A stretch of 64,000 nt of DNA from Prosthecobacter debontii (GTDB lineage Bacteria > Verrucomicrobiota > Verrucomicrobiia > Verrucomicrobiales > Verrucomicrobiaceae), in assembly GCF_900167535.1 (NCBI RefSeq), contig NZ_FUYE01000016.1:62001-126000 (forward strand). The letters run 5' to 3'. Of this stretch, positions 25,190 to 41,788 are shown one piece after another. Both the position numbers and the translations under genes were made by a program. The notes below the pieces were generated by a model. The model ran no database searches, was not told the origin of the DNA, and saw only the letters and a list, made by a program, of their open reading frames with translations. Positions within the stretch are counted from its first letter, which is position 1, and the number at the start of each line of letters is the position of its first letter.

Positions 25190-26818
25190 TTAGTTCCCTG
25201 GCATTTTAGGGCCTGAACAGGCCGTGAAGAAATAGATCCGCTCAATGAGCTGGCTGGTGAAAGCGAGAGCCGTCCACAATGCGAAGAGGATGGGGCGTGA
25301 GAAACCTCCTGCGACGAGCAGCGGTAAAAGGAGACCCGTCAGGACGAATAAAAACCTGCGGGCGGCGAGTTGTGGGGCGTGCAGAAACTCCATGCTGCGT
25401 GCTGAGCGATGACGAGCGCTTTTTTCATCCTTCAGCGCCGTTTCTTGTTCCCGGTTTTCTATCCCAAACATCAACCATTGCAGAACGAGTGCGGATAAAA
25501 AGAAAAGCGAGGCGTTCGGGCTACCTCTAAACGCTGACACCGTGGAGGTCAGGGCCGTGCCAAGAATCAGCAGGGTGCCGATAAACTTCAATGACACCAA
25601 CTTGGCAGACCAATAGGGCCGGCGCGTATCCACATAGACCATGATGGACGTGGCGACGGCAACGATGCCGACCAGAGTGGAGAGGACCCAAGCAGGCTTC
25701 ACCAAAAGGGGGAGGGGAAGCAACCATGCCGCAAGGGCCATGGAGCCTGCACCAGCATAGGCACCAAAAGCGAGGATCTCGCGAGACAGCCAGGACTTGC
25801 GCCAGCCCATGAATGCCCTCCATGCCTTGAGGGGCTGACCGAGGTGTAGGACACTGAGGTGAATGCCCGCAAAGCCGATGGCAAAAGCAACCCCGCTGAT
25901 CCAACCCGCGTCGTCGATCGTTAGCGCCTGAAGGCCAAGACCCAGAGTTGCTGTGAGGAAAGCCCCCGCGCTCATTTGAGTCATCACCAGCATCCACGAC
26001 AGAGGCATGTGCGCATGATCTTTGACCAGACGACCTTCATCGGCCGCATGAGCTTGCTCGGGGAGGGGGCGTTTGCTGGTATAGCGTGTGGTGGGGCCGG
26101 TGTAAGAACTGTCAAAGGCTCCTGCGATGATTTGGCCTTCACGCTCGACCTCACCGACCTTACGGTTAATGATCTTGATGGCTTCGTTGGGGCAAGCCTG
26201 CACACAAGCAGGCGCTTCTCCTTCTGAAAGGCGCCCGTGGCACATGTCACACTTACGGACGATGCCGCGTTTGAAGTTGAACTTCGGAACGTCGTAGGGG
26301 CACTTCAAGATGCAATAGCTGCAGCCGATGCATTGATCATCCAGATGCCGAACGATGCCTGTGATGCGGTCCTTATCGTAAGCGAGAACAGGACAACCGT
26401 CTGCACAGGCGGGGTCCACGCAGTGATGACATGCTGTGGTGACCGTTTGCAGATAGGGTTGCTTGCGGGTGCCGACGAGAAGGCCCATGTCTCTCCAGGC
26501 CTCATCGTCGTCCAAGCCATTGAGTGAGTGGCAGGCTGCAACACAGGCTTTGCAACCTGTGCAGGCGTCGAGATTCACTTCAAAGGCATATTGCTCATCG
26601 CTGTCTGGACGACTGAGTGGGATGAGATGGGAAAAGCGTTTGGAGGGCGCCTTTGAATCGTAGGCTTCGGAAAAGAGCGCGACAGGCGTGCGGAGCGTTT
26701 GCTGTTCTTCCAACAGGGATTCGAGCAGAAGACCGTGAATGGCTTGAGGATCAGGGGAGCTGGCATCGGGCTTCGGAACGGGTTTTCCCGAAGCTGATGG
26801 GTCCAAGTCGCAAATCAT
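25190..26818 (-). CDS. DmsB-DmsC fusion: four-cluster ferredoxin plus membrane quinol anchor
   Basis: The 542-residue fusion has residues about 80-215 carrying sixteen cysteines in four [4Fe-4S] groups (C86/89/92/96, C130/133/138/142, C163/166/169/173, C190/193/205/209), the DmsB/NrfC type. From about residue 265 onward there are eight or so hydrophobic helices of the DmsC/NrfD-type anchor, which oxidises quinol. In DMSO reductase these are two proteins. The upstream neighbour is nirA (20-bp gap) and the downstream one nasA (2-bp gap). The likely role is passing electrons from the quinol pool to NasA. No Tat signal is seen, so the Fe-S domain should face the cytoplasm, opposite to periplasmic DmsAB. 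The orientation is inference. Confidence 0.88.
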
Positions 26819-26838: not shown

Positions 26839-28590
26839 CTATTCTTCGCAGAAAATCTCCTGGAGTTGGCCAACGCTGTGCCTGTTACAGAACTGGTGAA
26901 AGGATTCGTCCGTCTCCCGTTTTTTGAGGAATCCCTTCAGCATTTGTTCCAAGGTCGTGCCCAGGGATTCAAAGGGAACACCGCTGAAGACTTGGCGGCC
27001 AATCTTTCGGTTTTCACCGAAGCCACCGCCGACGGTGATGTGGTAGCCTTCACCTGACTCGGATTTCACCTTGGTGCCCAGCAGCCCGATATCGCCCATG
27101 AAATGCTGGGCGCAGCTATGAGGGCAGCCTGTGAAATGAATGTTCACGGGTTGATCCAGCTTCACTCGCTTATCCAGATACTCCATCATGGCGATGGCGT
27201 GCCCCTTGGTGTCAGTGGCGGCGAATTTGCAGTAACGATTGCCCGTGCATGCGACGAAACCACTCTTAAGGTTAGACTGCTCACAGGGGAAACCTAGTTT
27301 CCGCAAGGACTTGGCCACCGTGGCTGCGTAGGGGGCTTTGATATTGGGGATGATGAAGTTTTGCCAAACGGTGAGGCGGATTTCGCCACTTCCATAGCTG
27401 TCTGCCAGGTCGGCAATCCGCTGCATCTGTTTGGCGGTGAGTTGTCCGACAGGCACGCTGGCTCCAACGTAAACCAGGCCCTCTTGCTTTTGCGGATAAA
27501 CGCCGACGTGCGAGTGCCCCTGCTGAGAAAACGATCTTGCGGCTTGGATACTAGCCTCGGCCTTAAGGCGGGTCAGTTTGAAGGGCAGGAAGGTTTCGGT
27601 TTCGCTCAGGACACCTTCGAGGCCCATATTCTCGACGACGTATTTGAATCGTGCCTTCTTCCGGTTGGTGCGGTCTCCATGTTTGATGAAGACACGCAGC
27701 AGGGCGACGATGACGTCGTTGATTTGTTCGGGTTTGACAATGACTCCCCAATCGCTGGCGAAGGTCTGATGGCCGGTCACGCCTCCTAGCGCGATGCGGA
27801 AATAGATGCCGGGCTCGATGCCCTGATCGTTCTCTTCGATCTTAACAGCACTGGCTCCGATGTCGTTGGTGTCTTCAACGGCGCTGATCAAACCTCCGCC
27901 ATCGTAGGCAATGTTGAATTTTCTGGGGAGGTCATAAAACTCCTTGGTGCCGATGATGAGGGTGGCGAGTTCATTGACAAAGGGGCGCACATCAATCAGT
28001 TCGTGCGGGTCATAACCGGCGCACGGATTCATGGTGATGTTGCGGATGTTATCGGCTCCGGCTCCCTTCGAGTGGAGGCCGCAAGACTGGATGCGGCGCA
28101 GCACTTCCGGGCAGTTTTTGGGCTCGATCAGTCGGATCTGGAAGTTGTTCCGTGTGGTGATCTGGATGTATCCCGTCGTCAGTTCAGTGGCGATGGCGGC
28201 CAGTTCACGCAGTTGATAGCTTTTGACCACACCGCCGGGGATGCGCAGGCGGCACATGTAGCCGTCCTTCACTGGATTGAGCCAAAAGAGGCCATTCCAC
28301 TTATAACGAAAGACGGACTCTGGCTCAGGCTTCGCGTTCCAGCGGGCATCCATGACCAGTTGTTCGATGGCATCGAAGGGGTGCAGCTCGCGCTTGATGC
28401 GCTCTTCCTTAGTGAGGTCATCCAGAGATGGGCCGTCGGGAAGGGCGGGGGCCGGAGCAGGTGCTCCCGATAGATCGGCAAAGGAGATCCCACCGGCGGC
28501 GATGCCGGCGAAGAAACCTTCGAGATAACGTTTTTGCTCAGATGAAAAATCTGATGTGGAAGAAGAGGGTAAGGTAGAAAGGGCGGTCAT
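26839..28590 (-). CDS. nirA: Assimilatory nitrite reductase, sirohaem type
   Basis: The 583-residue protein belongs to the ferredoxin-type nitrite/sulfite reductase family, which reduces nitrite to ammonium with sirohaem and a [4Fe-4S] cluster. The coupled-centre cysteines are C448-x5-C454 (ACTGNRYC) and C489-x3-C493 (GCPHSC). Two ferredoxin-like half-domains flank two sirohaem-binding blocks (YIQITTRNNFQIRLI, then GSGEIRLTVWQNF). Context favours nitrite over sulfite as substrate. The N-terminal extension (FSSEQKRYLEGFFAGI, from residue 15) is nearly the same as that of the adjacent CysJ-type flavoprotein and may dock the two proteins. It lies 20 bp before the DmsB-DmsC fusion and 73 bp after the flavoprotein gene. 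Confidence 0.92.
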   Translation of the reverse strand: MTALSTLPSSSTSDFSSEQKRYLEGFFAGIAAGGISFADLSGAPAPAPALPDGPSLDDLTKEERIKRELHPFDAIEQLVMDARWNAKPEPESVFRYKWNGLFWLNPVKDGYMCRLRIPGGVVKSYQLRELAAIATELTTGYIQITTRNNFQIRLIEPKNCPEVLRRIQSCGLHSKGAGADNIRNITMNPCAGYDPHELIDVRPFVNELATLIIGTKEFYDLPRKFNIAYDGGGLISAVEDTNDIGASAVKIEENDQGIEPGIYFRIALGGVTGHQTFASDWGVIVKPEQINDVIVALLRVFIKHGDRTNRKKARFKYVVENMGLEGVLSETETFLPFKLTRLKAEASIQAARSFSQQGHSHVGVYPQKQEGLVYVGASVPVGQLTAKQMQRIADLADSYGSGEIRLTVWQNFIIPNIKAPYAATVAKSLRKLGFPCEQSNLKSGFVACTGNRYCKFAATDTKGHAIAMMEYLDKRVKLDQPVNIHFTGCPHSCAQHFMGDIGLLGTKVKSESGEGYHITVGGGFGENRKIGRQVFSGVPFESLGTTLEQMLKGFLKKRETDESFHQFCNRHSVGQLQEIFCEE

Positions 28591-28663: not shown

Positions 28664-30313
28664 TCAATACACATCCCGCTGATAGCGTTTGTTTTTCTTC
28701 ATCTCAGCGATGTAAGCGGCGGCTTCGTCGGCTGATTTACCGCCCGCGGTTTGGATGATTTCATGGAGGGCGGTGTCCACGTCTTTGGCCATGCGCTTGG
28801 CATCTCCACAGACATAAAAGTGAGCCCCTTCTTCCAGCCACTGCCAGAGTTCGCTGGCGGCCTGGATCATGCGGGTCTGGACGTAGATCTTCTCTTCTTG
28901 ATCACGAGAGAAAGCGGTATCCAGGCGGGTGAGGACTCCTTTGCGAACCCACTCGATGATTTGATCCTGATAGAGGAAATCGGTCGTGCGACGCTGGTCT
29001 CCGAAGAATAACCAATTTTTACCAGGTGATCCGGTGGCTTCACGTTCTTCAAGGAAGGCACGGAAGGGCGCAATGCCGGTGCCTGGGCCGACCATGATGA
29101 CCGGTTTCTTGGGATCTTCCGGCAGGCGGAAGTGTTTAGCGACATGGAAGAAGACGCCTGTTGTTTCTCCAAGAGGCAGGCGATCAGCCAAGAACGTGGA
29201 GGCCACGCCCTTGTGCTGCAAGCCGTGCAATTCGTAACGGACAGCACCGACACAGAGATGAACTTCTTCTGGGTGCGCTTTGAGGCTCGAAGCAATGGAG
29301 TAAAGGCGTGGTTGAAGCTTCCTCAAGCCGCCGATGAAATCTGAGAGGGTGATGGGATTGACGGGGATGACTCCATGCAGATGCCGGATTTCATAGAATC
29401 CGATCAGGGCGTCTCTCAGGGGAGCAACACCATCATCGGGGAGGGCCACATCGGCATTCGGGTCCAAGGCATGAGCGGAGATGATGCTATCCACCACTTC
29501 GGGGCAGTTCTTGACATAGACCCCGAGGGCATCTCCGACTTCATAGTCTAAGCCCGATCCCGCGAGGGAGAAGGCAATGTGGCGTGTGTCCTTAGCGCTG
29601 CCCGAGGTATTGAGCGCGAGGTTGGCCAGGAGTGGTGCTGGGAAGGGGTTTTTCTTGGTGTAGCCCGTTTCTTGAACGGAGGGTTCTGCGACAACCGCTG
29701 GAGCCAGCGTGAGGGTCGTCGTGGGTTCACTGGCCAAGGCATCGAAAGCGGAACTGCTCCAGGTTTTAGCGAGATCGTCGAATTCGACATCGCAATCCAC
29801 GCGGTCAATGATCCGGGTGGCACCGAGTTCGGCGAGCCGCGCGTCCATCTTTTTCCCCGCTAAGCAGAAGGTGTCGGCATAGTTCATGTCTCCCAGTGCC
29901 AAGACGCTGTATTTGACACCGGCTAAGCTCGGGCTGTTTCCATTTTGATTGATCGCGTCCCAGAACGAGGTGGCATTGTCCGGCATGTCACCCTCACCCC
30001 AGGTGCTGGTGATGAGTAACACATTTTGTTCGCGCACGAGATCCGCCGGTTGCAGCGAATCGAGGCCTGCTGCGCGCGCAGCAAAACCTCGACCCGCTGC
30101 TTCCCTGGCCAGCCGCTTGGCCAAACTTTCTGCGTTGCCGCTTTGACTGCCGAAGGCAATCAACAACGGACGTTGTGACGAGGCAGAGGACCCAAGTGAG
30201 GTCGGGCCTGCTGAGGCTCCTCGATTGAGGAGACCCGCTAAAAAGCCATTGAGCCAGGCTCTTTGCTCTGCCGAAAAGGGGGCGGATTCAGGTATGATCG
30301 GAACGGTGTTCAT
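28664..30313 (-). CDS. CysJ-type diflavin reductase, likely NADPH donor for NirA
   Basis: The 549-residue flavoprotein has, in order, an N-terminal docking-type segment (FSAEQRAWLNGFLAGL), a flavodoxin domain (FGSQSGNAESLAKRL and STWGEGDMPDNA, about 50-190), an FAD domain (RLYSIASSL) and an NADPH domain (VGPGTGIAPFRAFLEER, FFGDQRRTTDF). It ends RYQRDVY, the usual C terminus of CysJ and cytochrome P450 reductases. In E. coli CysJ feeds electrons to the sulfite reductase haemoprotein. Here its neighbour is NirA, so it most likely passes NADPH electrons to nitrite reduction. It sits 36 bp after the globin gene. Confidence 0.9.
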   Translation of the reverse strand: MNTVPIIPESAPFSAEQRAWLNGFLAGLLNRGASAGPTSLGSSASSQRPLLIAFGSQSGNAESLAKRLAREAAGRGFAARAAGLDSLQPADLVREQNVLLITSTWGEGDMPDNATSFWDAINQNGNSPSLAGVKYSVLALGDMNYADTFCLAGKKMDARLAELGATRIIDRVDCDVEFDDLAKTWSSSAFDALASEPTTTLTLAPAVVAEPSVQETGYTKKNPFPAPLLANLALNTSGSAKDTRHIAFSLAGSGLDYEVGDALGVYVKNCPEVVDSIISAHALDPNADVALPDDGVAPLRDALIGFYEIRHLHGVIPVNPITLSDFIGGLRKLQPRLYSIASSLKAHPEEVHLCVGAVRYELHGLQHKGVASTFLADRLPLGETTGVFFHVAKHFRLPEDPKKPVIMVGPGTGIAPFRAFLEEREATGSPGKNWLFFGDQRRTTDFLYQDQIIEWVRKGVLTRLDTAFSRDQEEKIYVQTRMIQAASELWQWLEEGAHFYVCGDAKRMAKDVDTALHEIIQTAGGKSADEAAAYIAEMKKNKRYQRDVY

Positions 30314-30349
30314 TGGAATGAAAGCGGCTTCTTCCAGAAAACAAAGGCG

Positions 30350-30769
30350 TTAAGCGGTGGGCTCCTTGGCGGCTGCCTTCATGACGTCGGCAAGGAGGGT
30401 GTAGGTGGCCGTCCAGGCTTCTGCCACCTCGGGGGTGTAGGCATCTCCCAAACCCTTTTCCAAGGTCCAAAGCAAAGCTCCGGCAACGGTGTCATAGTGC
30501 GCGTCAGTGACGCCATAGGCCACGTGCCGACGGCCCAGCGCCTGCACGGCTGGAACGATCTCATCCAGATGGTCCAGGCCTCTGACGGCGATGGTGATCA
30601 TCTGCATGAGCTTCTTACCTTGCTCCTTGATATCGGAGGTGAAGAGCGGGCGGAGGGAGGGGTCCATCTCAAACAGACGATTGTAAAACAATTCGGCAGC
30701 GGTTTCTGAGATGGGGACAACCTGAGCCCAAGTCGTTTGGACCAGTGTTTTTTGTTCGGGTGTAATCAT
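30350..30769 (-). CDS. Single-domain globin (Vitreoscilla type)
   Basis: The 139-residue globin has His82 in GRRHVAYGV as the likely proximal haem ligand, and HYDTVAGALLWTLEKGLGD and AWTATYTLLADVM align with helices G and H of Vitreoscilla haemoglobin and the globin part of flavohaemoglobin. No reductase domain is attached. In a nitrate/nitrite operon such globins are often linked to nitric oxide removal; the adjacent diflavin reductase could keep its haem reduced. Both ideas are inference. It lies in line with its neighbours (45 and 36 bp gaps). Confidence 0.88.
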   Translation of the reverse strand: MITPEQKTLVQTTWAQVVPISETAAELFYNRLFEMDPSLRPLFTSDIKEQGKKLMQMITIAVRGLDHLDEIVPAVQALGRRHVAYGVTDAHYDTVAGALLWTLEKGLGDAYTPEVAEAWTATYTLLADVMKAAAKEPTA

Positions 30770-30814
30770 GGCAGGGCTGAGTGGGGTGGGTTTGGGAGGT
30801 GTGGGAAAACGCCT

Positions 30815-31405
30815 CTAGTTGGAGGCGGTGAGAGGGATGCGGATGACGACGCCACCCATGACATCTCCTTCTTTGAAGTCGGTGCGGGGGGAGTCGTCGT
30901 GGCCGTTATGGCACTTCACGCAGGCTGCAGCGATGGCGATGTCTGGATAGACCGCAGTGAAGTATTTTTTGCCGCCAAGCGTCTCTTCCGTGTAGTAGTT
31001 CTGGCCGACGTTTTTGACGATGTGCGCCAGGCCGGTTTTTTCGGCGTCCGTTTTCGGCGAGTTTTGCTTGTTGATCGGCCACTCGGAAAGCAGGGCATAG
31101 GTGAAGCCTTTCTTTTTCCCGGCGACCATCTCGGCTCCCATGCGGAACATTTGAGCCGGTAGGGGCAGGGCTTTGTCATCTTGCCAGTGTTCGCTAGCCT
31201 TGATGACCTTCTCTTCGTTTTGCAGACGGTTGACGACGGCTTTCGTGTAAACCGTGCGGTCAGACTCCATGACTGCATGCAGCGCATCAGCCATTTGTTG
31301 AGGTGAGATTCCGCCGGCGGATCCAGTTTCTGATTTGCCTCCGCAGGAGCTGAGAAGGCCGATGATTGCCGCAAGTGCCAGAATAGATGTTGAGGATGTT
31401 TTCAT
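30815..31405 (-). CDS. Haem-binding lipoprotein, Tll0287-like domain
   Basis: The 196-residue protein has a lipoprotein signal (LALAAIIGLLSSCGG, lipid-carrying Cys about residue 21) and a single c-type haem site CVKCH near residue 168 (AACVKCHNGH). The YYTEETLGGKKYFTAVYPDIA and MGGVVIRIPL segments match the Tll0287-like/DUF3365 domain found in haem sensor or electron-transfer proteins. Export to the outer side of the membrane is expected. It follows the multihaem cytochrome gene by 21 bp. It could pass electrons or sense redox; the real role is unknown. Confidence 0.78.
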   Translation of the reverse strand: MKTSSTSILALAAIIGLLSSCGGKSETGSAGGISPQQMADALHAVMESDRTVYTKAVVNRLQNEEKVIKASEHWQDDKALPLPAQMFRMGAEMVAGKKKGFTYALLSEWPINKQNSPKTDAEKTGLAHIVKNVGQNYYTEETLGGKKYFTAVYPDIAIAAACVKCHNGHDDSPRTDFKEGDVMGGVVIRIPLTASN

Positions 31406-31426
31406 GATGCAGGGTGGGGGATGATG

Positions 31427-32794
31427 TCATTGCTTTTTGGCGGACGCTTTCCGGCGGCTAAGCACCATCTCGATGGATTCGATGTGATGTTCAGGATGTC
31501 CGTCAAAATTGGTTGGGCCGAGTTTCGGATCGGCCAAAGAGTCGAGAGAAAAACCAAGGCCATGGCAGTTGATGCAGACGCCCCGGGCCATCTTCTCCAC
31601 AGGTCGGAGATTCATGCTCTGGTTATGCTGCACGCTCACGGTGGTGAGTTCGCCTTTCACATGCGTCTCCCGGGGCATGTGGCAGGTGGCACAACTGACG
31701 CCACTGCCTGCGGGGGTCTTACCGCTGATCTCGGAGAGCCAGAGCTGATAGTGAGAAGATTCTTTGTAAGCCAAGCTATGATTGTCCGCGTGGCATTGCA
31801 GGCAGGACTCCACGGCTGCACGGCGGGTGTTGCTGTCATGAGGGCTGTGGCAGGAGTTGCAGGTCAGGCTGAGGTGTGCCGACTTCTCTTGCATGGGCAG
31901 GCGTGCTTGGCCTGGCTGCATGGCTGGGAGTCCCTGAGCCAATCTCATGCCGTGCAGCCCTGCGAGAAAACCTTCATTCTCTTGCTTGTGGCATTCCGTG
32001 CAGGAATCCATGCCGGGTTGATCTCGCCATTCGGTTTCTTTGCCATGGCAAGAGGTGCAGTTGACGGCTGCGGCTGCGTGAGCGGAGGCGGCCCAGTCAT
32101 TCAAGATCTTGTCTGCATTGGGGCCACTGGGGAGGCGTCCGTCATGTTGAGCCGAGGACAGTGAAGCCGTCATCGGAACTCCATGGGCCGTGTCTTTTGG
32201 AGCTTGTCCATGACCGTGAACCTTGGTGCGCTCCGGCAGAAGGGCGCGCAGCAGTTGAGCCGGTTCGGAGGCATGTTTGGCGAGGAAGTCCTCATACAGA
32301 GCGGTGTTGTCGTGATAGTTATGGCAACCGACATTCAGACAGGTGGCGAAACTCATGCCTTCATGGCTCGGGCGCTCTTGGGCCACATCGGCATGGCAGT
32401 GGAGGCAGTAGTCGATGGGCTGCGTCACCCCCATGGCGGTCGTGGCTTCGGGACGATGTTCGATATGGCAAGTGATGCACTTGTCGGCGGCGATCGTGGT
32501 GAGGCGATCTGCGTTGCGTGGATCGGTAAATTTGGCCATCGGGTGTGAATCTTTGGCCGCTGCCAAGGCGCTGCCGTGGCAATCGATGCAGGATTGCTCA
32601 CGCACACCGCCCCAAGGTTCATGGCAGGCCGTGCATTTCATCTCGATCTGGTAATGGCCGTGCGTCGTCGCCCCTGGAAGGAAGACAGTGGAGGCTCCAT
32701 CATCCTCGCGGAAGCGGCCAGCCAGATAGCTGCTCAGCAAAGCGGCAGAGCCGATGCCTAGCACCCAGGGCAAGATGGAGAGGGACGTGTTCAA
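31427..32794 (-). CDS. Membrane-anchored multihaem cytochrome c, about 11 haems
   Basis: The 455-residue protein starts at TTG 32794, which overlaps the TGA stop of the preceding gene (TTGA), so it is translationally coupled. The frame is open upstream but that part duplicates the C terminus of the upstream gene in another frame. An N-terminal helix (LSILPWVLGIGSAALLSSYL) anchors a periplasmic domain with ten CXXCH sites (CTACH, CIDCH, CITCH, CLHCH, CTSCH, CTECH, CNSCH, CLQCH, CATCH, CINCH) and one CLNVGCH, a CX4CH site. It is cytochrome c3-like in style. With the cytochrome b fusion encoded just before it, it may form a membrane-crossing electron chain. The terminal acceptor is unknown; it is not a recognisable NrfA. 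Confidence 0.85.
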   Translation of the reverse strand: MNTSLSILPWVLGIGSAALLSSYLAGRFREDDGASTVFLPGATTHGHYQIEMKCTACHEPWGGVREQSCIDCHGSALAAAKDSHPMAKFTDPRNADRLTTIAADKCITCHIEHRPEATTAMGVTQPIDYCLHCHADVAQERPSHEGMSFATCLNVGCHNYHDNTALYEDFLAKHASEPAQLLRALLPERTKVHGHGQAPKDTAHGVPMTASLSSAQHDGRLPSGPNADKILNDWAASAHAAAAVNCTSCHGKETEWRDQPGMDSCTECHKQENEGFLAGLHGMRLAQGLPAMQPGQARLPMQEKSAHLSLTCNSCHSPHDSNTRRAAVESCLQCHADNHSLAYKESSHYQLWLSEISGKTPAGSGVSCATCHMPRETHVKGELTTVSVQHNQSMNLRPVEKMARGVCINCHGLGFSLDSLADPKLGPTNFDGHPEHHIESIEMVLSRRKASAKKQ

Positions 32795-34791
32795 TAGCGA
32801 TAAACAGTGAGAATGTGAAACAGCACCAGCACCAGGAGGGGCCAAGTGAGTAAGGCATGGACGCAGGTCCAGCCTACCTGGAGCCAACGGGCGGAGACGG
32901 GGGAAAGCCGATGGGCGAGTGCAATCACGGCACCGGAAAGGGCTCCGGTGATGGCCAAGGTCAGCATGTTCATCATGAGCACCTTGTTCAGATTAAAACC
33001 CAGGCGGAAACCGGTATGACTGACCAACACCATGAGTGACAACACCCCCAGGGAGGTGTGGATGATTCTCCATGCACCATAGTCCCCCAGATGCATCAAG
33101 GCGCGGACCCGCTTGCGCAAGGGTAGAAGGAGGGCCAAAACCATCAAGCCTAACAAGGTGTATCCCGTGACTTGCTTCCAGAAACCATCCAGCCAGATCA
33201 GATCGTAACGGAAGCCGGAGACGGTTGGGCTCAGCGGAATGGGGGAGAGCACCGCATGGAGCAGCGGTAGCAGCGTCGCCACGACGCAAGTCCATAACAG
33301 TGGCTTGGCCAGACGCACCGCAGGTGAGGTCGTGCTGCCGCAGAGTTGGGCCAGCAGTGGCCGACAGGAACCGCAGACAGTGCCAGCTCCTGTTTCCGCA
33401 GAGAGGGCCGCAACGGTCTTGCAGCCGGCCGCATAAGCACAGCTCAGTTGGCCACGAGTCACGCCTGTGCATTGGCAGACGGCGGCAGTGGCAGGCCACT
33501 GGGTCACATCCTGGCTGATGGGTTTCCACGGAGAGCCTGTTTTGACAAAGCGGGCTTGTTCCCAGAAGCGTAGCCGTTGCTTCTGCATCACCGCGGTTTG
33601 CAATCTGCCGACATCCTCGGTGCTGCCAAAGAGACTGACTCCACTCACCCGGCCTTCGTGAAGAAGGATCTGTTTCAGCATGCCTTGGTTCTTCCAGGTC
33701 AATAGGTTCCCTTCGGCTCGGATATCGCCGATGGTGACCACGTCCGTTCCGGCCAGTTTAAGCCTAACGGGATATTCAGTGGGCGTGAAGCGAGAATCCC
33801 GTCCCGCCAGCTTTTCAGCCAAGACCCGAGCCATGTCGAAGCCTGGGGCGGCAAATCCATAAAAGACCCCGCGTGGCACGGCGCACTCGCCAATGGCAAA
33901 GATAGCAGGGTCGGAGGTTTCCAGTGTTTCATTGACCAGAATGCCACCTCGGGCACCGGTCTGTAGGCCGCAGGCTTGGGCCAGCTCATCACGAGGCTCC
34001 ACGCCCGCTGCCATGACGATCATATCGGCGGTGAGCGTGCGTTCGTCTCGGAAGTGCAATTGCAGGGAAGCCTCCTCCTGAGTGATGGCGGTGGTAATGC
34101 AGCCGGTCAGTACTTTGAGCCCGCTGGCCTTGACGCGTTGCTCCAGCAATTGGGAGGCTTCAGCATGGAGCTGACGGGTCATCAGGCCATGCGCTGTCTC
34201 CAGCACATGAGTCTGCACGCCAAGATCCAGGAGGGCGCGTCCAGCTTCCAAGCCCAACAGACCCCCACCTAACACTGCCGCAGTCTTTGCCGTTGCGGCC
34301 CGCTGACGGATGGCGGCCAAATCGGCCAAGGTGCGATACACAAAAACATCAGGTAAGTCGGCCCCTGGCACGGACAATCGTCTGGCGGAGGAACCGGTCG
34401 CGAGGATCAAGACATCGTAAGCATGGATGTGTCCTGATCGAGTTGTGACCTGCCGCTGCTCTCGATCAATGTGCGCGGCGGCATCGCCTAAAGTTACCGT
34501 AATGCCGTGCTCCGAATACCAGGAGGCTGGAGCTAACTCAAGGTGAGCTTCTCCGCTACTGCTGAGCCCCTGCGTGAGATGAATGCGGTCGTAGGCAAAA
34601 ATGTTTTCTTCGGCAAGAATGGTTAGACTGAAGCCGTCGTGCCCCAGCTTGACCCACTCCACACAGAAACGGTGACTCACCATTCCGTGACCGATCATCA
34701 GCAGTCTCTGCTTCTTGGAAGACACGACCCCGCCCGCCGCTGCCTGGGAGAGAGGCAGCGCGGGAGCTTCGGCGGGCGGGTGTGTTTTCAT
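32791..34791 (-). CDS. Fusion of NirB-like FAD/NAD(P) reductase, BFD [2Fe-2S] domain and two-haem cytochrome b
   Basis: The 666-residue fusion has residues about 28-420 as a NirB/NasB-type FAD-NAD(P)H oxidoreductase (MIGHGMVSHRF at 32, VLGGGLLGLEAGRAL near 175, FAIGECAVPRG). Residues 438-476 form a BFD-type [2Fe-2S] domain (C439-x-C441 and C473-x2-C476). The remainder is five or so membrane helices. Two helices each carry two histidines spaced 14 apart (H578/H592 and H645/H659), the arrangement that holds two b haems in ferric reductase and NADPH oxidase type proteins. The sirohaem part of NirB is absent. It probably moves electrons from NAD(P)H across the membrane to the multihaem cytochrome encoded next, whose start overlaps its stop. 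Direction and partner are inference. Confidence 0.85.
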   Translation of the reverse strand: MKTHPPAEAPALPLSQAAAGGVVSSKKQRLLMIGHGMVSHRFCVEWVKLGHDGFSLTILAEENIFAYDRIHLTQGLSSSGEAHLELAPASWYSEHGITVTLGDAAAHIDREQRQVTTRSGHIHAYDVLILATGSSARRLSVPGADLPDVFVYRTLADLAAIRQRAATAKTAAVLGGGLLGLEAGRALLDLGVQTHVLETAHGLMTRQLHAEASQLLEQRVKASGLKVLTGCITTAITQEEASLQLHFRDERTLTADMIVMAAGVEPRDELAQACGLQTGARGGILVNETLETSDPAIFAIGECAVPRGVFYGFAAPGFDMARVLAEKLAGRDSRFTPTEYPVRLKLAGTDVVTIGDIRAEGNLLTWKNQGMLKQILLHEGRVSGVSLFGSTEDVGRLQTAVMQKQRLRFWEQARFVKTGSPWKPISQDVTQWPATAAVCQCTGVTRGQLSCAYAAGCKTVAALSAETGAGTVCGSCRPLLAQLCGSTTSPAVRLAKPLLWTCVVATLLPLLHAVLSPIPLSPTVSGFRYDLIWLDGFWKQVTGYTLLGLMVLALLLPLRKRVRALMHLGDYGAWRIIHTSLGVLSLMVLVSHTGFRLGFNLNKVLMMNMLTLAITGALSGAVIALAHRLSPVSARWLQVGWTCVHALLTWPLLVLVLFHILTVYRY

Positions 34792-34830
34792 CGGGTGGTT
34801 TTTTGAGAGACCGGAGGGATGAATTGAGAT

Positions 34831-36213
34831 TTAGAAATCAATCTGAAGCTGCAGGTAGCCGAAGTGAGCGTTGTCACCGGCACCCGTGTCGTTCAGGTAG
34901 TCTCCTGCCATGTAGAGGCTGTAGCCGGTTTGGAGGGCCACATGGGCGTTGAGCTTGTAGATGGCGGTGAAGTCGAACTCTTGACCACGGAAGCTGCTGG
35001 CATCACGCGCGGCGGCATTGACCGGGCGCACGGCAGTGACACCGTTCACACGTCTCCAGGCATCATCGTTGCTGGCATTCCAGTAGAGATGATAGTCCAG
35101 CATGACCTTCAGCTTTGAGGTGGGGCTGAAGCTGATGTTGAGCTGGGGATTGTGAACGTTGACCCAGCCGGAGGTATCCATGTAACCGTAGAACAGGTGG
35201 TTCGTGGGATACAGGTTCTGGAAGGTCTCGATATCTCCATCCGCAGGATCTTGATCACCCGTGGCATAGTTGTATTGCAAGCCGACGCGTGGTTTCCAAG
35301 GATGCTTGAAGTTATACCCGAGACCCCAGTGACCCGCAAAAGCGGTGAGATCTCGTCCGCTGACCTCGCCGGTTTGGAAGGCCATTTCGGTTTCATAATC
35401 CCAGCCACCCAGCTTTTTCGGATCGCCCTTCCACAGGGTTCCGATGGTGTAGAAGCTGGTGTCTCCCAGGCGTGGTCCGAAGGCACCGTTGCCGTCGTCG
35501 CGTTTATGGAGAACGTAGAAGTCGGTGGTGGTATTGATGGGCACCCACTGAGTGCTCAGGTAGAGACCACTGAACATTTCGTTCACAGTGTCATCGTCAT
35601 CGAGGAAGGTGGATTTGTTCCACTCGTGATCTTTGAAAACGACGGGGCTGCCGCTGAAGAGATCCAGAGACCATGAGGAGGCTGCATAGCGCAGTTTCAG
35701 AGCATCGAAGGCTCGTGCGCTGTTTAGCCACTCGAGAGGTCCGATCAGGCGCTGATCCCCGTAAGCGAGAAACTGGCGACCAGCGGTGACACTGACGCCT
35801 TTTTTCAAGTCTCCCGCTTGGACATAGGCCTTCAATATATCGAAGGTATCATCACCCTCCGCGCCAAAAGTTCCCATCTCATTCGGACGGCTGCCGCCGA
35901 TCTCGCGCAGGTCTTGACCCTGGACATACAGCTTCAGCCAAGGGGCGACACTGTAGCCGATGCCTAACCTGAAACGTTGGAGCAGCCAGGAAGCGTCTTG
36001 AGGGCCGTTGACGGCGGAGTTGAAGTCGAAGTTGTTTTCACGGATCTCTGCGCGCATCTTCTCCTGAATGTCCACAGTCAGCTTGCCGTCAAAGAAGGTG
36101 ATCGGAGCGTAACCGGGAGGGGGAGGCGGCGCGGGAGGTGCCGGTGGAGTTGCAGTGGGGGTTCCCGCATGGGCGAGGGAGGCCGATGCGAGCAGGAGTG
36201 CTAGCCTTTTCAT
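34831..36213 (-). CDS. Alginate-export-family outer membrane porin
   Basis: The 460-residue protein has a signal peptide (MKRLALLLASASLAHA) followed by a Pro/Ala-rich linker and a long series of amphipathic strands with aromatic ends, closing with YLQLQIDF, a C-terminal Phe of the outer-membrane beta-barrel type. Segments such as RFRLGIGYSVAPWLKLYVQGQD and AGRQFLAYGDQRLIGPLEW are typical of the AlgE/alginate export porin family. In this operon it is more likely a nitrate/nitrite entry porin than an alginate exporter; this is context inference. The start at 36213 is chosen for the signal peptide. Confidence 0.82.
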   Translation of the reverse strand: MKRLALLLASASLAHAGTPTATPPAPPAPPPPPGYAPITFFDGKLTVDIQEKMRAEIRENNFDFNSAVNGPQDASWLLQRFRLGIGYSVAPWLKLYVQGQDLREIGGSRPNEMGTFGAEGDDTFDILKAYVQAGDLKKGVSVTAGRQFLAYGDQRLIGPLEWLNSARAFDALKLRYAASSWSLDLFSGSPVVFKDHEWNKSTFLDDDDTVNEMFSGLYLSTQWVPINTTTDFYVLHKRDDGNGAFGPRLGDTSFYTIGTLWKGDPKKLGGWDYETEMAFQTGEVSGRDLTAFAGHWGLGYNFKHPWKPRVGLQYNYATGDQDPADGDIETFQNLYPTNHLFYGYMDTSGWVNVHNPQLNISFSPTSKLKVMLDYHLYWNASNDDAWRRVNGVTAVRPVNAAARDASSFRGQEFDFTAIYKLNAHVALQTGYSLYMAGDYLNDTGAGDNAHFGYLQLQIDF

Positions 36214-36254
36214 TGATGGGTGGGGGTGTGTGTTGGGTGTTGCATGTATCGGGG

Positions 36255-38039
36255 CTAAGCGGCGGCTTGCAGGGAAAGGGATGCGGCGCGACGCAAGAGA
36301 GTGGCGTCGGCACGGCGGTGATGGGTGGTGACTCCACGCAGGTGGGCCCGCTCTTCCAGGAAGGAGAGCAGGTGCTCGCGGTAGTGATGCCACTCGGGCT
36401 GCTCCATGAGCAGCTTGCGGTGACGCGGGCGTGGTAGATCAATGTGGAGGATCTCGGCGGCGGTGGCGGCTGGGCCATCACTCATCATCACGACTTGATC
36501 GGAGAGGTAGATGGCTTCATCCACATCATGAGTGACCATGATCGCGGTGGTGCCAGTGCGCTCACGCAGATTCAGCAAGACATCCTGGAGTTCGAGTTTG
36601 GTCAGCTTATCCAGCATGCCAAACGGCTCGTCGAGCAGCAGCACCTTCGGTTGGAGCGCAAAAGCTCGGGCTAGACCGACACGCTGGCGCATGCCTTGAG
36701 AGAGTGCGCCGGGCTTTTTATCAAAGCTGCCCCCTAAACCTAAGGTTTCGAGGTAATGAGCGGCGATGTCCTTCTGCTCCGTCTTGCTGAGCTGATAAAA
36801 CACCTGGCGGACGCCGAGCATGACGTTCTCCAGTGCGCTCATCCATGGCAGTAGGTTGGGGCTCTGGAAGACCATGCCGCGATCAGGTCCAGCCCCATCG
36901 ATTTCGCGTCCATCCACAATGATGCCGCCATGAGTGATGCTGCTCAGGCCGGCCACCATGCCGAGAACGGTGCTTTTGCCGCAACCGCTGTGGCCGATGA
37001 TCGAGACCAATTCACCGCGCTGAATATTGAGGTTGAAATCACGGACGATCACAGCCTCGCCACGCGGAGTCGGGTAACTTTTCGCCAATTGAGAGATGCT
37101 TACAAAGCCATGTCCTGAGCCATGGGGAGCCGTTTGATCCTTAGCTTTAACAGGCTGAATGGCGCTGTGAGCGGGAGCCCAGCGAAAGGTAAAGGTCGGC
37201 CGTGAGCTGCGGATATCCACCGGTGTGGCTTCGGGTAGAGCACGGATGCTGCTGCTCTCGGCTTGGTCATCCCGCTGCGCGATGAGGAAGTCGAGAAGGC
37301 GGGTGCGTGAGGCGAGAATCTTCGGATCTGCCAGCAGCGTCGCCCGGTCCCGTGGATGTGCTTTATCGATCATCTCTACGGCACCGAGGGTGGCAGCAGG
37401 TCCCATGGTCAGCGGGATCACCTTGTCTGCCATGTACAGCGCCTCATCGACATCATTGGTGATGAGGAGGATGGTCTGTCCGGTGCGCTTTTTTAGCTCC
37501 AGGATCTGATCCTGTAACTCGGATCTCGTCAGGGCATCGAGAGCGCTCAGGGGCTCATCCAGTAGAAGCACTCTTGGCGCAAAAGATAACGCACGGGCGA
37601 CCGAGACACGCTGCCGCATGCCTCCGGAGAGCTCACGCGGCAGCTTGCGGGTGGCGGGTGTGAGTTTCACCTGATCCACCGCATCGGCAACTCGAGTGCT
37701 GCGTTGCTCGGCCGTCTCGCTTTGACACACTTGATCGACCGCTAGAGCCACATTTCCCTGCACGCTCAACCAAGGAAGCAGTGCGTAGGTTTGAAAGACC
37801 AAACCACGCTCTGGACCTGGTCCTGTCACAGGCTTGCCATCAAAGAGCACCTGCCCCTGATCCGGCTTTACCAGACCAGCGATTAGGTTCACCAAAGTGG
37901 TCTTCCCACTGCCGGAATAACCAACGATGGCGACGAGTTCTCCTTCCTCAATGGAGAGATTGAGATCTCGAAGAACTTCGGTCCTCTGGCCGCTGCTGCC
38001 AAAGCCGACGTTGACGTGTTTAATTTCGATCAGAGACAT
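36255..38039 (-). CDS. Nitrate ABC transporter, fused NrtC-NrtD ATPase
   Basis: The 594-residue protein contains two complete ABC ATPase modules. The first has GYSGSGKTTLVN, signature LSGGMRQRVSVARAL and LLLDEPLSALD; the second has GHSGCGKSTVLG, signature LSQGMRQRVGLARAF and LLLDEPFGMLD. In cyanobacteria NrtC and NrtD are separate and NrtC carries an extra NrtA-like C-terminal sensor. Here the two ATPases are joined by a linker and no NrtA-like domain is present. It powers uptake with the permease encoded 11 bp upstream. The start at 38039 (MSLIEIKHVNVGFG) is clear; the longer frame to 38195 covers the permease gene. Confidence 0.9.
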   Translation of the reverse strand: MSLIEIKHVNVGFGSSGQRTEVLRDLNLSIEEGELVAIVGYSGSGKTTLVNLIAGLVKPDQGQVLFDGKPVTGPGPERGLVFQTYALLPWLSVQGNVALAVDQVCQSETAEQRSTRVADAVDQVKLTPATRKLPRELSGGMRQRVSVARALSFAPRVLLLDEPLSALDALTRSELQDQILELKKRTGQTILLITNDVDEALYMADKVIPLTMGPAATLGAVEMIDKAHPRDRATLLADPKILASRTRLLDFLIAQRDDQAESSSIRALPEATPVDIRSSRPTFTFRWAPAHSAIQPVKAKDQTAPHGSGHGFVSISQLAKSYPTPRGEAVIVRDFNLNIQRGELVSIIGHSGCGKSTVLGMVAGLSSITHGGIIVDGREIDGAGPDRGMVFQSPNLLPWMSALENVMLGVRQVFYQLSKTEQKDIAAHYLETLGLGGSFDKKPGALSQGMRQRVGLARAFALQPKVLLLDEPFGMLDKLTKLELQDVLLNLRERTGTTAIMVTHDVDEAIYLSDQVVMMSDGPAATAAEILHIDLPRPRHRKLLMEQPEWHHYREHLLSFLEERAHLRGVTTHHRRADATLLRRAASLSLQAAA

Positions 38040-38050
38040 GGTCGGTAGGA

Positions 38051-39190
38051 TCAGAGGGTCTGACTTTCGAAGGTGACTAGGCGCTGGAGAGCGAGCATGA
38101 AGCGGTCGAGAATGAAGCCGATGAAACCGATGGCGAAGACGGCCACGACGATCTGGGCCATGCTTTCGGTCGATCCATTTTGGAATGTGTCCCACACGAA
38201 CTTCCCGAGTCCGGGGTTCTGGGCGAGCATGTCAGCGGCGATGAGCACCATCCAGCCCACGCCGATCGAAAGCCGCATTCCCGTGAAGATCAGGGGTAGG
38301 GCTGCGGGAAGGATGATCTTCCATATCCGCTGCCATGCATTCAGCTTCAGCACGCGTGCCACGTTCAGATAATCTTTATCCACACCTGCCACACCGACGG
38401 CTGTATTGATCAACGTGGGCCACAGGGAGCAGAGGGTGACGGTGCCTGCGGAGATGAGCAAGGCACGCGAGATATTACTGCCATCGGCAGGGCTGTAGAG
38501 TGCCGTAACAAAAACGAACACGATGGGTAGCCAAGCGAGGGGGGACACGGGCTTGAAGATCTGAATCAACGGATTCATGGCGAGGTTAAAGCGCGGACTC
38601 AAACCGCATAGAAAGCCGAGCGGCACGGCGATGAGCGTGGCTGCACCGATGCCGATTCCTACCGTGATGAGGCTGGTGATAATCTGCGTGCCAAAGGTGG
38701 GCGGACCTGCGTAGCGTTTGCTACGGTAGTTCTCCGCTTTTTCACGGTACTGAGAGGCCGAAGAATTTTTTCCTGCGGCTTCGGCATCGCGGGCTTTCGT
38801 TTCCCACTTCTGCGCGATGGCTTCCATGCTGGCTTTGAACTCGGTTTTCTTCACCGCTTCATTGCGGGCGAATTCGCGCATACCTTGCCAGGCGCTCCAC
38901 GTTTCTGCGGGGCTAGGGATACGCTGGCTATCGGTGTGAACGGTGTGCGAGCACAAGGTCCAAAAGCCCATAAACAGAGCGATGACCACCCCCGGCAGGA
39001 CGGTATTCATGACGATCTGCTGCCACTGAGAGCGCACATCATGCCCGGCAATGAGGCGGATAATGGGGCTGAAGTAGCCTAGACCCAGCTTTTCAAGCAG
39101 GGCAGCACTGGCGAGCATTTTTAGAGGCTCCCGTTTGGCCTTCGAGGGCTCGGGCGGGGATGTGGACGATTCACAGGTGATGGTATTCAT
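38051..39190 (-). CDS. nrtB: Nitrate ABC transporter permease
   Basis: The 379-residue inner membrane permease of the NrtB/SsuC/TauC type has hydrophobic helices near residues 50-70, 160-185, 205-235, 240-260, 305-330 and 345-370. The ABC coupling loop fits LNVARVLKLNAWQRIWKIILPAALP. Between the first and second helices is a charged insert of about 75 residues (MEAIAQKWETKARDAEAAG) that is longer than in typical NrtB. The ATPase gene follows after 11 bp and the binding-protein gene precedes by 31 bp. The start at 39190 (MNTITCESS) is chosen over the longer frame. Confidence 0.88.
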   Translation of the reverse strand: MNTITCESSTSPPEPSKAKREPLKMLASAALLEKLGLGYFSPIIRLIAGHDVRSQWQQIVMNTVLPGVVIALFMGFWTLCSHTVHTDSQRIPSPAETWSAWQGMREFARNEAVKKTEFKASMEAIAQKWETKARDAEAAGKNSSASQYREKAENYRSKRYAGPPTFGTQIITSLITVGIGIGAATLIAVPLGFLCGLSPRFNLAMNPLIQIFKPVSPLAWLPIVFVFVTALYSPADGSNISRALLISAGTVTLCSLWPTLINTAVGVAGVDKDYLNVARVLKLNAWQRIWKIILPAALPLIFTGMRLSIGVGWMVLIAADMLAQNPGLGKFVWDTFQNGSTESMAQIVVAVFAIGFIGFILDRFMLALQRLVTFESQTL

Positions 39191-39221
39191 GGCGGCGGCG
39201 GCTTTCAGGGACAGGGGGAGA

Positions 39222-40577
39222 TCACTTGAGTCCGATCTCGAAGGACTTAAGATAGTCATTGGGTTTGTGCCCATCGTAGGTCTTGCCATCGATGAACTCC
39301 GAGGTGGCCGGGCGGTAGCCATCTGTGCCGAGAGGGAAATCTGCTTCGGTGAAAAAACCTTCCTTGATCAGTAGCTTGGCGGCCTGCTCATACAAATCGG
39401 CTCGATAGACAGACTTTGCGGTTTCGGCATACCACGCGTCTGGCTTCTGTTCTTTCACTTGGCCCCAGCGCACCATCTGGGTCAGATACCAGACACAGTC
39501 ACTCAGCCAGGGATAGGAGGCATGATGTTTGAAGAAGACATTGAAGTCAGGGGCAGGCCGCTTGTCTCCAGGCTCATATTCAAAGGTGCCAGTCATACTG
39601 TTGGCAATGACAGCTTCATCGGCGCCGACGTAGTTAGGGGCGCTCAGAATTTTGACGGCCTCTTTACGGTTCTCCGCATTGGCATCCAGCCATGCACAGG
39701 CACGAATGATTGCCTTGGTCAGTGCTAACGTGGTGTTCGGATTGGTTTCGGCAAAAGCCTTGGTGATGCCGAAGACCTTCTCTGGATTGTAGGCCCAGAT
39801 TTCGTGGTCTGTGATCACTGGGACACCGATTTTTTTGAAAACGGCTTGCTGGTTCCAAGGTTCACCGACGCAGTAACCGACAATGGTGCCCGCTTCCAGA
39901 GTGGAAGGCATTTGCGGCGGCGGCGTGACGGAGATGACGAGGTCGCCATTGAGCACTCCAGGGATGTTTTCTTCGCCGGATTTCGGATCGAAGTAGTAGC
40001 CAGGACTGATCCCTCCAGCGGCTAACCAATAACGCAACTCATAGTTATGTGTGGAAACCGGGAAGACCATGCCGAACTGCAAGGGCTTGCCAGCGGATTT
40101 GGCTTCCATCACGATCGGCTTGAAAGAGTCCGCTTTGATCGGGTGTTCGGGTTTACCATCGCTACCCAGGGGGATGGCTTTTTTCATTTGCGCCCATACC
40201 GCATTGGATACCGTGATGGCGTTGCCATTGTAATCCAGGCTGACAGGAGTAATCACCTCGGCTTTCGTGCCAAAACCCACCGTGGCGCCAATGGGTTGTC
40301 CCGCCAGCATATGGGCACCGTCCAGCTCGCCAGAAATCACCCGGTCGAGCAGGACTTTCCAGTTCGCCTGGGCTTCGACTTCGACAATCAGGCCCTCGTC
40401 TTCAAAAAAACCTTTTTCCTTGGCAATGACGAGGGGTGCACAGTCGGTGAGTTTGATGAAGCCGAGGCGGAGTTGATCTTTCTCCACATCGAGCAGTTCG
40501 GTTTCTGCGCCGAAGGCGGAGAGGCTGAGGAGGGCCAAAAGGCCGGGTACAGTCAGGTAGGTCTGGGGTTTGCGCAT
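39222..40577 (-). CDS. nrtA: Nitrate-binding protein, exported
   Basis: The 451-residue substrate-binding protein has a signal peptide ([14 protein letters not shown]). Motifs of the NrtA/CmpA family are present: [54 protein letters not shown] and [12 protein letters not shown], which line the nitrate pocket. It should capture nitrate in the periplasm and hand it to NrtB. It is paralogous to the unexported protein encoded 17 bp upstream. The start at 40577 (MRKPQTYLT) is chosen to include the signal peptide. Confidence 0.92.
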
Positions 40578-40594
40578 GATGATTTGGCAATGGG

Positions 40595-41692
40595 TTAGGC
40601 TGATAGGGAAGGGGATGTTTTCTTGGTCTTGGACGCGGCGGTGGCGGCGGGCGGTAAGAGGTGATCCGCGCTCCAGCATTCACGCAGAGCCTCGGAAGCT
40701 TCGGCTCTTTGAGTCGCCAGGATGAGGCCGTGCTGGACGAACTGATTCAGCAGCCACATGCCCCGCTCATTCAGAGGTTCATTGGCCTCACGGCGGTGAA
40801 AGATGTGGAAGGCGGAGGCGTCCATGCTTTGGCCGGTGCCGAGGTCGAGAGGACCAATGAGGGACTTTTTCAAAATCGCTTCGCCATTGAGGAAGTAACC
40901 GCTGGCTGCCAGGATGCGGACGACCTCGGGGCGATTCTCTAAGACATCGCAAAAAGCGCAGGCCTCTCGCAGGGCGGCTGTGATGGCTTGGGCTTGGTCC
41001 AGATGACTGCTGATGAAACTCTCATTCATCAGCAACACTTTCTCAGGGTGATTGGGGGCCAATTGCTCGCTGGTGGCGACGATCCAACCAACGGCTTTAT
41101 CCACGGCCACAGAGTTCCAAGGTTCTCCCACGCAGTAGCCATCGATCAGCCCGGCGGCCATGTTGGCGGCCATCTGAGTGGGGGGCAATGCGACGATGCG
41201 GACGTCTTGATCGGGATTGATACCACCCGAGATCAGCCACTGGCGCAGCAGGAAGTGGTGCGCTGCATAGCGGGAGACCATGCCGAAGGTGAGCCGCCGA
41301 GATGTGGTGCTGCGGATCAGTTTCTTTAGGCTGGCGGCATCCCGGACCCCGCGATTCCACAAGTCCCGGCTGAGGGTGATGGCATCTCCATGGAGATTGA
41401 AAACGAACGGAGCCACGACGCGAGAAGGTGGTGTGCTCAGACCTAACCGCATGGCTAGCGCGAGACCCGCGATGGCATGCGCAGCATCCACCTGGCCGTA
41501 GAGGAGCTTTTCCCGGATGGTGGCCCAGCCGACCTCGCAGCTCAGCTCCACCTGCACACCGTGCTTCCGAAAGAGATCTTGCTCTTTCGCCACCAGCAGA
41601 GGGGCACAGTCTGCCAGCGGGATAAACCCGATGCGGACTGGCTGAATGACCCCGGAGAGAGAGGGGCCTGAAACAAGGGCGGCTTTTGGCAT
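40595..41692 (-). CDS. NasS-like cytoplasmic nitrate-binding sensor
   Basis: The 365-residue protein is homologous to NrtA ([72 protein letters not shown]) but without a signal peptide, so it is cytoplasmic. A strong Shine-Dalgarno sequence (AAAGGAGGGCG) precedes the ATG at 41692, which fixes the start; the longer frame to 41788 overlaps the operator and the divergent gene. In NasS-NasT systems NasS binds nitrate and releases the RNA-binding antiterminator NasT. NasT is not in this window, so either it is elsewhere or NasS-like protein works with the divergent LysR regulator. It is the first gene of the 13-gene nitrate run. Confidence 0.82.
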
Positions 41693-41773
41693 AACGCCCT
41701 CCTTTATCAGCAGCGGTGGTGCCACCGTGCCAAACTCATGCAGAAACAACGCGCAATCTTTTTCACATGGTGT

Positions 41774-41788
41774 ATGAATGATATTCAT
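41774..41788. promoter_or_regulatory. Palindromic LysR-type operator candidate
   Basis: ATGAAT-GAT-ATTCAT is a perfect 6-bp inverted repeat with a 3-nt centre and fits the T-N11-A pattern of LysR binding boxes. It overlaps the start codon(s) of the lysR gene (41778 and 41787) and lies in the 85-bp divergent region in front of the nitrate operon. It is a good candidate for autoregulation and operon control. Binding is inferred. Confidence 0.5.

Follow-up and report, generated by a model that had tools for sequence, protein, structure and literature searches.

A flavoprotein fused to a predicted membrane cytochrome b

We analysed a 64,000-nucleotide stretch of the Prosthecobacter debontii genome (assembly GCF_900167535.1, contig NZ_FUYE01000016.1, positions 62,001-126,000 of the forward strand; lineage Verrucomicrobiota, Verrucomicrobiia, Verrucomicrobiales, Verrucomicrobiaceae), here called the window. 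A minus-strand open reading frame (ORF) that starts with ATG encodes a 666-residue fusion protein in which a NirB-like FAD/NAD head and a BFD-type [2Fe-2S] domain are followed by a predicted five-helix cytochrome b, and the genes that follow it encode an eleven-haem cytochrome c, a Tll0287-like mono-haem protein and a single-domain globin. These features are, in window coordinates:

32791..34791, minus strand: fusion protein, 666 residues, NirB-like FAD/NAD head, BFD [2Fe-2S] domain and five-helix cytochrome b (ORF, Pfam, NirB profile, alignment)
33502..34710, minus strand: FAD/NAD(P)H head, residues about 28-430 (Pyr_redox_2, NirB profile, Foldseek)
33346..33480, minus strand: BFD [2Fe-2S] domain, residues 438-482, with C439, C441, C473 and C476 (Fer2_BFD, structure profile match, invariant cysteines)
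32794..33321, minus strand: cytochrome b domain, residues about 491-666 (hydropathy, conservation, predicted model)
33058-33060, 33016-33018, 32857-32859 and 32815-32817, minus strand: codons of H578, H592, H645 and H659, respectively
31427..32794, minus strand: eleven-haem cytochrome c with ten CXXCH motifs, one CX4CH motif and an N-terminal hydrophobic segment (motifs, sequence reading)
30815..31405, minus strand: Tll0287-like (sCache_heme) mono-haem c protein (PF11845, E 3.4e-20; one CXXCH)
30350..30769, minus strand: single-domain globin (PF00042, E 2.7e-17; of the NCBIfam flavohaemoprotein model, only the globin part is aligned)

Pfam places Pyr_redox_2 at residues 48-304 of the fusion (E 9.9e-50) and Fer2_BFD at residues 438-482 (E 1e-9), with no match over cut-off beyond residue 490. 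Residues 30-491 align to positions 1-472 of the 794-position NirB model TIGR02374, at 424 bits against a cut-off of 578, and NIR_SIR, the sirohaem/4Fe-4S nitrite reductase half, has no Pfam match in the protein. Since the match to the NirB model stops at 472 of 794, the protein has a head of the NirB type but lacks the sirohaem half, and for this reason we rejected the identification of the fusion as NirB itself. A Foldseek search with the predicted model of the fusion returned NADH-dependent ferredoxin and rubredoxin reductases, the best 50 of 1667 rows being FAD enzymes, and a profile search of solved structures matched the BFD part to bacterioferritin-associated ferredoxins. In six of the seven rows of alignment A1 the last residue of the second Rossmann strand is acidic; such an acidic end usually goes with a preference for NADH, and NADH, not NADPH, is the probable electron source of the head. 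An initial annotation, made from the DNA letters, had described a protein that keeps the FAD/NAD(P) part and BFD domain of NirB and exchanges the sirohaem part for membrane helices. Pfam, TIGR02374 and hydropathy agree with that description, and all eight residues that it named (C439, C441, C473, C476, H578, H592, H645 and H659) were correctly placed. A promoter scan of window positions 30000-37000 returned 0 sites.

Conserved histidine pairs and membrane topology

We aligned the window protein with 17 relatives (alignment A4, 18 fusions), omitting L095 (a 747-residue frame with a long N-terminal overhang), L102 (at a contig end), and L018 and L049 (gene split over two contigs). The four BFD cysteines and H578, H592, H645 and H659 are invariant in all 18 sequences, these four histidines occupy the only columns with histidine in at least 14 rows, and both pairs, H578/H592 and H645/H659, are spaced by 14 residues in every fusion. 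Past residue 490, hydropathy finds hydrophobic stretches that group into five helices with the histidine pairs in helices 3 and 5, and a low-confidence AlphaFold model has helices at residues 492-514, 529-560, 571-593, 601-624 and 631-665. With helix limits set from hydropathy, the 18 fusions carry 1-3 Lys/Arg and 1-4 Asp/Glu in loop 1, 3-5 and 0-1 in loop 2, 0-1 and 0-1 in loop 3, and 2-5 and 0-4 in loop 4. Since loops 2 and 4 are richer in Lys/Arg than loops 1 and 3, an N-in/C-out topology is favoured. H578 and H645 are thus predicted to lie near the cytoplasm and H592 and H659 near the periplasm, the pairs being opposed across the membrane.

The topology check proposed in the initial annotation concerned histidines falling on opposite or extramembrane positions, and hydropathy, loop charge and the low-confidence model did not place them so. 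The same annotation had likened the spacing of the pairs to that of ferric reductase/NOX proteins. Two helices each carry a pair, and the spacing of 14 holds in all 18 fusions, but this spacing is not specific to the ferric reductase/NOX group; it occurs also in bc1/b6f-type cytochromes b and in quinone-linked b cytochromes.

A rare, scattered fusion with constant partners

A scan of our genome collection with the window protein gave seven loci (L013-L019). The match reaches residue 666 in six of them, starting from residue 108 in L017, and stops at residue 403, at a contig edge, in L018. The metagenome-assembled genomes concerned are labelled Nitrospirota/Nitrospiria (L013, L014), Hyphomicrobiaceae (L015, L016, L019), Muproteobacteria (L017) and Rhodothermales (L018). 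We then used a 236-position alignment of the BFD and cytochrome b parts (A2) as a genome-search profile. In the window's phylum (288 genomes) six genomes gave near-full-model matches. There were three in the phylum of L013 (198 genomes), six in the order of L015 (150 genomes), one in the phylum of L018 (247 genomes) and at least two in the phylum of L017 (349 genomes; G324 and G779), where a further gene, in G798, is cut by a contig end. The samples of 150 and 349 genomes overlap, and in many genomes only part of the first-pass candidates was scored, so that misses are possible. Nearly all other A2 matches listed are confined to the BFD part, in many cases within a frame of NirB size, or to a portion of the membrane domain. 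No full-length match was present in the 36 relatives first checked, and the A2 search found one in one other genome of the same genus (G220); a plasmid search gave 12 records, annotated as NirB or unannotated, with a best cover of 34%. From these searches we take the fusion to be real, rare in these samples and scattered.

Gene order was read in 21 loci of 21 genomes with the window proteins as queries, the window's own order being taken from ORFs and Pfam. A recurrent module emerges, in which the fusion is accompanied by the eleven-haem cytochrome c, the mono-haem Tll0287 protein and, in most loci, a globin. Of the 21 fusion genes, 19 are complete and two (L049, L102) are cut by a contig end; the fusion frame of L095 and the Tll0287 gene of L017 had been hidden by an overlap filter and were taken from a separate reading of the locus and from the ORF list, respectively. 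In every locus the eleven-haem gene follows the fusion and a Tll0287 gene is present. Searched alone (E up to 1e-20), the eleven-haem protein turned up in six of the 288 genomes of the window's phylum, precisely those in which the fusion was found. A single-domain globin lies near the fusion in 15 loci, the window included, and nitrate-type ABC transporter genes lie within the stretch in eight (window, L017, L039-L043, L095). In L017, a NirB-like frame (18846-20704, plus strand; 33% to fusion residues 27-487) that is cut by the locus end stands downstream of the module and a nitrate-type transporter.

The inferred TTG start of the window's eleven-haem gene overlaps the stop codon of the fusion gene, which suggests translational coupling; a longer frame extends to 32887. 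All 21 eleven-haem sequences (L095, L102 and L049 included, with N-terminal overhangs in L095, L016 and others) have 11 haem motifs, ten CXXCH and one CX4CH in 20 of them and 11 CXXCH in L102. Twelve further histidines are invariant in this alignment, so that each haem could have two histidine ligands; this speaks for a wire and against an enzyme.

Between the window protein and its closest relative, that of L039, nonsynonymous divergence (dN) is far below synonymous divergence (dS) in the head, BFD and cytochrome b parts alike; dN/dS is about 0.06 in the head (dS 2.1) and 0.13 in the cytochrome b (dS 1.1), with dS near saturation. Mantel tests on fusion, eleven-haem, Tll0287 and globin distances (five comparisons over 15-19 loci, with L095 included and the Tll0287 row of L017 left out) gave r of 0.81-0.90, and 0 of 2000 permutations were as high.

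Relatives of the cytochrome b

The ferric reductase/NOX family PF01794 is absent from the full Pfam table of the window protein (13 families, E up to 10) and from the 25 families listed, out of 43, for the 18 fusion members together. Below threshold, the membrane domain matches DUF4405 in 8 of the 18 fusions and the b561-type family Ni_hydr_CYTB in 5 (best E 0.0046), the latter not appearing in the window protein's table. In hhalign comparisons, for which the shallow sets make the test weak, the cytochrome b scored 35.7% (E 3.9e-4) against a six-row ferric-reductase set, in whose rows the histidine pairs are spaced by 12-14, 10.4% against DUF4405, 1.2% against Ni_hydr_CYTB and 0.1-0.3% against two membrane controls; between reference sets, ferric reductase against Ni_hydr_CYTB gave 0.2% and Ni_hydr_CYTB against DUF4405 gave 33.6%. 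Kinship with NOX or ferric reductases is not shown by these comparisons. A search of solved structures with the BFD and cytochrome b profile gave BFD matches and weak unrelated ones only.

The only firm relatives are unnamed cytochromes b of L044, L045, L103, L104 and L105 (hhalign 98.2%, E 4.4e-14), which were found, with the weaker L046 and L047, through weak matches of the genome searches. Both H-x13-H motifs can be read in the proteins of L044, L045, L103 and L104, those of L044, L103 and L104 have no Pfam match over cut-off, and multihaem c frames lie near the cytochrome b in five of the seven loci (L044, L045, L103, L104, L105). Compared with the fusion, the L044/L103/L104 type has a longer stretch before the last helix. 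Its partner is a separate cNMP-binding/4Fe-4S gene, recognised by Pfam in L044, L103 and L104, and the neighbours in L045 and L105 are Fe-S proteins by similarity only. None of the 10 window cluster proteins scanned with Pfam has a cNMP_binding match. The fusion looks like the same kind of cytochrome b, in which a fused flavoprotein would have taken the place of the separate Fe-S partner. The set of cNMP-binding/4Fe-4S protein, two-His-pair cytochrome b and multihaem cytochrome c in L044, L103 and L104, and also in L045 and L105, is itself a recurrent arrangement.

The gene cluster around the fusion

The neighbouring genes on both sides of the module, named at family level, are:

34831..36393, minus strand: Alginate_exp-family barrel of the outer membrane, probably with an internal true start (PF13372, E 1.5e-66)
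36255..41788, minus strand: nitrate-type ABC transporter, made up of NrtCD, NrtB and two NrtA-like proteins
36255-38195, minus strand: NrtCD (TIGR01184, E 6.4e-167, over cut-off)
38051-39322, minus strand: NrtB (NrtB model, E 1.4e-45, below cut-off)
39222-40679 and 40595-41788, minus strand: NrtA-like binding proteins (SsuA-family matches below cut-off)
28664-30313, minus strand: CysJ-like flavoprotein (Pfam/NCBIfam)
26839-28590, minus strand: NirA-type protein (over the NirA-family cut-off, also over the CobG cut-off)
25190-26818, minus strand: DmsB-DmsC fusion (Pfam/NCBIfam)
22998-25187, minus strand: NasA-type molybdopterin reductase (best models below cut-off)

The NasA-type gene adjoins the DmsB-DmsC fusion, and the NirA-type gene adjoins the CysJ-like flavoprotein. 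A DmsB-type Fe-S protein fused to a DmsC-type membrane protein beside a NasA-type reductase is found with similar genes in L039 and L040, and the pair is possibly a quinol-linked assimilatory nitrate reductase. Twenty module genomes were searched for NasA-like genes; among the 18 with a match, the gene lies in the same cluster as the module in three (G000, G220, G270), many of the genomes being drafts with the genes on different contigs. An Alginate_exp barrel is encoded in at least five loci: Pfam recognised it in the window, L013 and L041, and L039 and L095 have one as judged by similarity. Between the barrel and fusion genes of L013 lies a 286-residue protein with no Pfam match (9123-9983, plus strand), and L014 has a 293-residue ORF at the same place. 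Divergent from the nitrate-type cluster of the window is a LysR-type regulator (41778-42689, plus strand) whose below-cut-off matches include the NCBIfam multihaem cytochrome-associated LysR. Further away, at 16212-20909 on the minus strand, the window encodes a repetitive protein of 1565 residues that, on inspection by eye, resembles an autotransporter and has a PEP-type C-terminus. A single-sequence search of solved structures with the Tll0287 protein gave nothing useful.

Discussion

We propose that the fusion is an inner-membrane, NADH-oxidising flavocytochrome b that would feed a periplasmic multihaem cytochrome c. In the cytoplasm the FAD head would oxidise NADH, and the BFD [2Fe-2S] cluster would accept the electrons singly and pass them to a b haem on H578 and H645 at the cytoplasmic side. 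From there they would move to a second b haem on H592 and H659 at the periplasmic side, and on to a periplasmic arm, made up of the eleven-haem cytochrome together with the mono-haem Tll0287 protein, that would unload them onto a further acceptor. The neighbouring globin would remove nitric oxide (NO) in the cytoplasm and may take electrons from the same head. Judged from sequence, a conduit that leads from NADH through FAD, the [2Fe-2S] cluster and a pair of b haems into the eleven-haem wire of the periplasm is likely. A single-polypeptide NAD(P)H-to-periplasm conduit had already been predicted in the initial annotation, and the reductase-related head, the invariant BFD domain, the predicted helices, the favoured topology and the adjoining eleven-haem gene support it. 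We give fair credence to the whole explanation, a flavocytochrome b and multihaem wire working in nitrogen-oxide (N-oxide) metabolism and perhaps reducing the globin; the N-oxide role of the module, considered separately, is tentative, and reduction of the globin by the same head is doubtful. A bolder version seems improbable, in which the four genes form a transferable nitrosative-stress hub where one NADH-oxidising polypeptide splits electrons between an NO-removing globin and the eleven-haem wire, which in some hosts would connect through an Alginate_exp-type barrel with acceptors on the outer membrane or outside it.

Several observations weigh against this proposal or parts of it. Block pLDDT, the AlphaFold confidence score, is only 42-69 in the membrane part of the fusion, in a model without haem, and the structure model of the eleven-haem protein is unusable (mean pLDDT 37.2). 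The Mantel correlations partly reflect shared host ancestry, and no multihaem frame was flagged in the distant cytochrome b loci L046 and L047. In six of the 21 module loci (L041, L042, L043, L049, L101, L102) the fetched stretch contains no globin gene, and nitrate-transporter genes were not seen in 13 of the 21. Among the Rhizobiales loci and L101, Pfam found no nitrogen genes in seven neighbour proteins (from L096, L097, L100 and L101), one of which had no match. With no transporter seen in 13 loci and with such non-nitrogen neighbours, the N-oxide role may not be general. The NasA-like matches, in 18 of the 20 module genomes searched, are a count with no background control, and the substrate names in the window cluster come partly from below-cut-off matches, the NirA-type protein passing the CobG cut-off as well. 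The eleven-haem protein matches NrfA and octahaem nitrite reductases over short stretches and may have an enzymatic role; we set the reading of this protein as an NrfA- or octahaem-type nitrite reductase lower, since the matches are short only and the 12 invariant non-motif histidines leave no obvious open haem.

Since NasA- and NirA-type genes share its cluster in the window, the fusion could also be mainly a cytoplasmic donor to an assimilatory nitrate reductase and the globin, like NasB or Flp, with the membrane part serving as an anchor or a quinol-fed second entrance; NAD(P)H flavoproteins such as Bradyrhizobium Flp are indeed donors in Nas systems (PMC4724949). We consider this unlikely. 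Each of the two reductase genes adjoins a plausible donor gene, so that neither is obviously without one, and a NasA-like gene shares the cluster in only three of 18 genomes with a match (many of them drafts), which argues against the fusion as a simple nitrate reductase subunit; the four invariant histidines and the eleven-haem neighbour in all 21 loci would be left unexplained.

The membrane part might instead exchange electrons with the quinone pool, making the protein an NADH:quinone or quinol:cytochrome c oxidoreductase. Histidine pairs 14 apart do occur in quinone-linked b cytochromes, and the weak, below-cut-off Ni_hydr_CYTB matches in 5 of the 18 members (best E 0.0046) point the same way, but hhalign against that set gave just 1.2%, in a test weakened by shallow sets, and we put the chance of quinone exchange at the low level of the cytoplasmic-donor explanation. 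Flow in the inward direction, from periplasmic cytochromes to NAD+ or to the cytoplasmic globin, is very improbable: nothing favours it directly beyond the reversibility in principle of such a cofactor chain, the head resembles NAD(P)H-oxidising reductases, and such a flow would run against both the redox gradient and the membrane potential. An assembly artefact, or the chance joining of an unrelated membrane gene to a piece of NirB, would account for the empty first check of 36 relatives. It is ruled out by complete fusions in 19 genomes, the end-to-end alignment of 18 of them and the low dN relative to dS against L039.

If the outward conduit is correct, a single polypeptide would couple NADH to a periplasmic multihaem cytochrome, with neither a quinone nor a separate dehydrogenase between them, and cytoplasmic reducing power, a globin and an envelope haem network would be joined in a small module of distant bacteria. 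The individual domains are known. The initial annotation could put no name to the architecture, and our searches of the open-licence literature turned up neither the fusion nor the module, which is weak evidence of novelty.

Comparison with known systems

NirB and the fusion share the FAD/NAD head and the BFD domain, and the sirohaem/4Fe-4S half of NirB is replaced in the fusion by the five-helix cytochrome b. Ferric reductases and NOX proteins carry electrons from NAD(P)H across the membrane and resemble the fusion in having histidine pairs in two helices, a likeness of pattern only and not a specific one, whereas the dehydrogenase head of the fusion is N-terminal and of another fold, and the fusion has no PF01794 match. 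CbcL-type quinol dehydrogenases couple b haems to multihaem c at the inner membrane, as the fusion and its partner would, but they are quinol-fed and lack an NADH head. A CbcL-type cytochrome b/c of Geobacter is named in PMC7096707.

NasB and Flp, which we set against the fusion by family features and not by direct sequence comparison, are NAD(P)H flavoproteins of nitrate-assimilation clusters. In B. subtilis, NasB is the NAD(P)H flavoprotein donor of the Nas system. In Bradyrhizobium, the genetic neighbours of Flp include a single-domain globin and a nitrate ABC transporter (PMC4724949), as do those of the fusion in the window. The excerpted text of that paper describes the flavoprotein as cytoplasmic and mentions no membrane cytochrome b or multihaem partner, in contrast to the five hydrophobic segments past residue 490 of the fusion. 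According to the same text, the narK-bjgb-flp-nasC nitrate-assimilation operon gives protection against NO through its globin and its NAD(P)H flavoprotein, electrons for both NasC and the globin are proposed to come from the flavoprotein, and the electron donor of another globin, Cgb, is still unidentified (PMC4724949). A single-domain globin beside an NAD(P)H flavoprotein, the likeness to this Bjgb-Flp system of NO detoxification, recurs in 15 of the 21 module loci, the window among them. Stand-alone Tll0287 proteins are described in a preprint as binding c haem and having redox-type properties (PMC12889525), and the third gene of the window has both the PF11845 match and the CXXCH motif. If the proposed conduit is right, the module offers a concrete test case for the electron source of a stand-alone Tll0287 protein and for the reductant of a single-domain globin.

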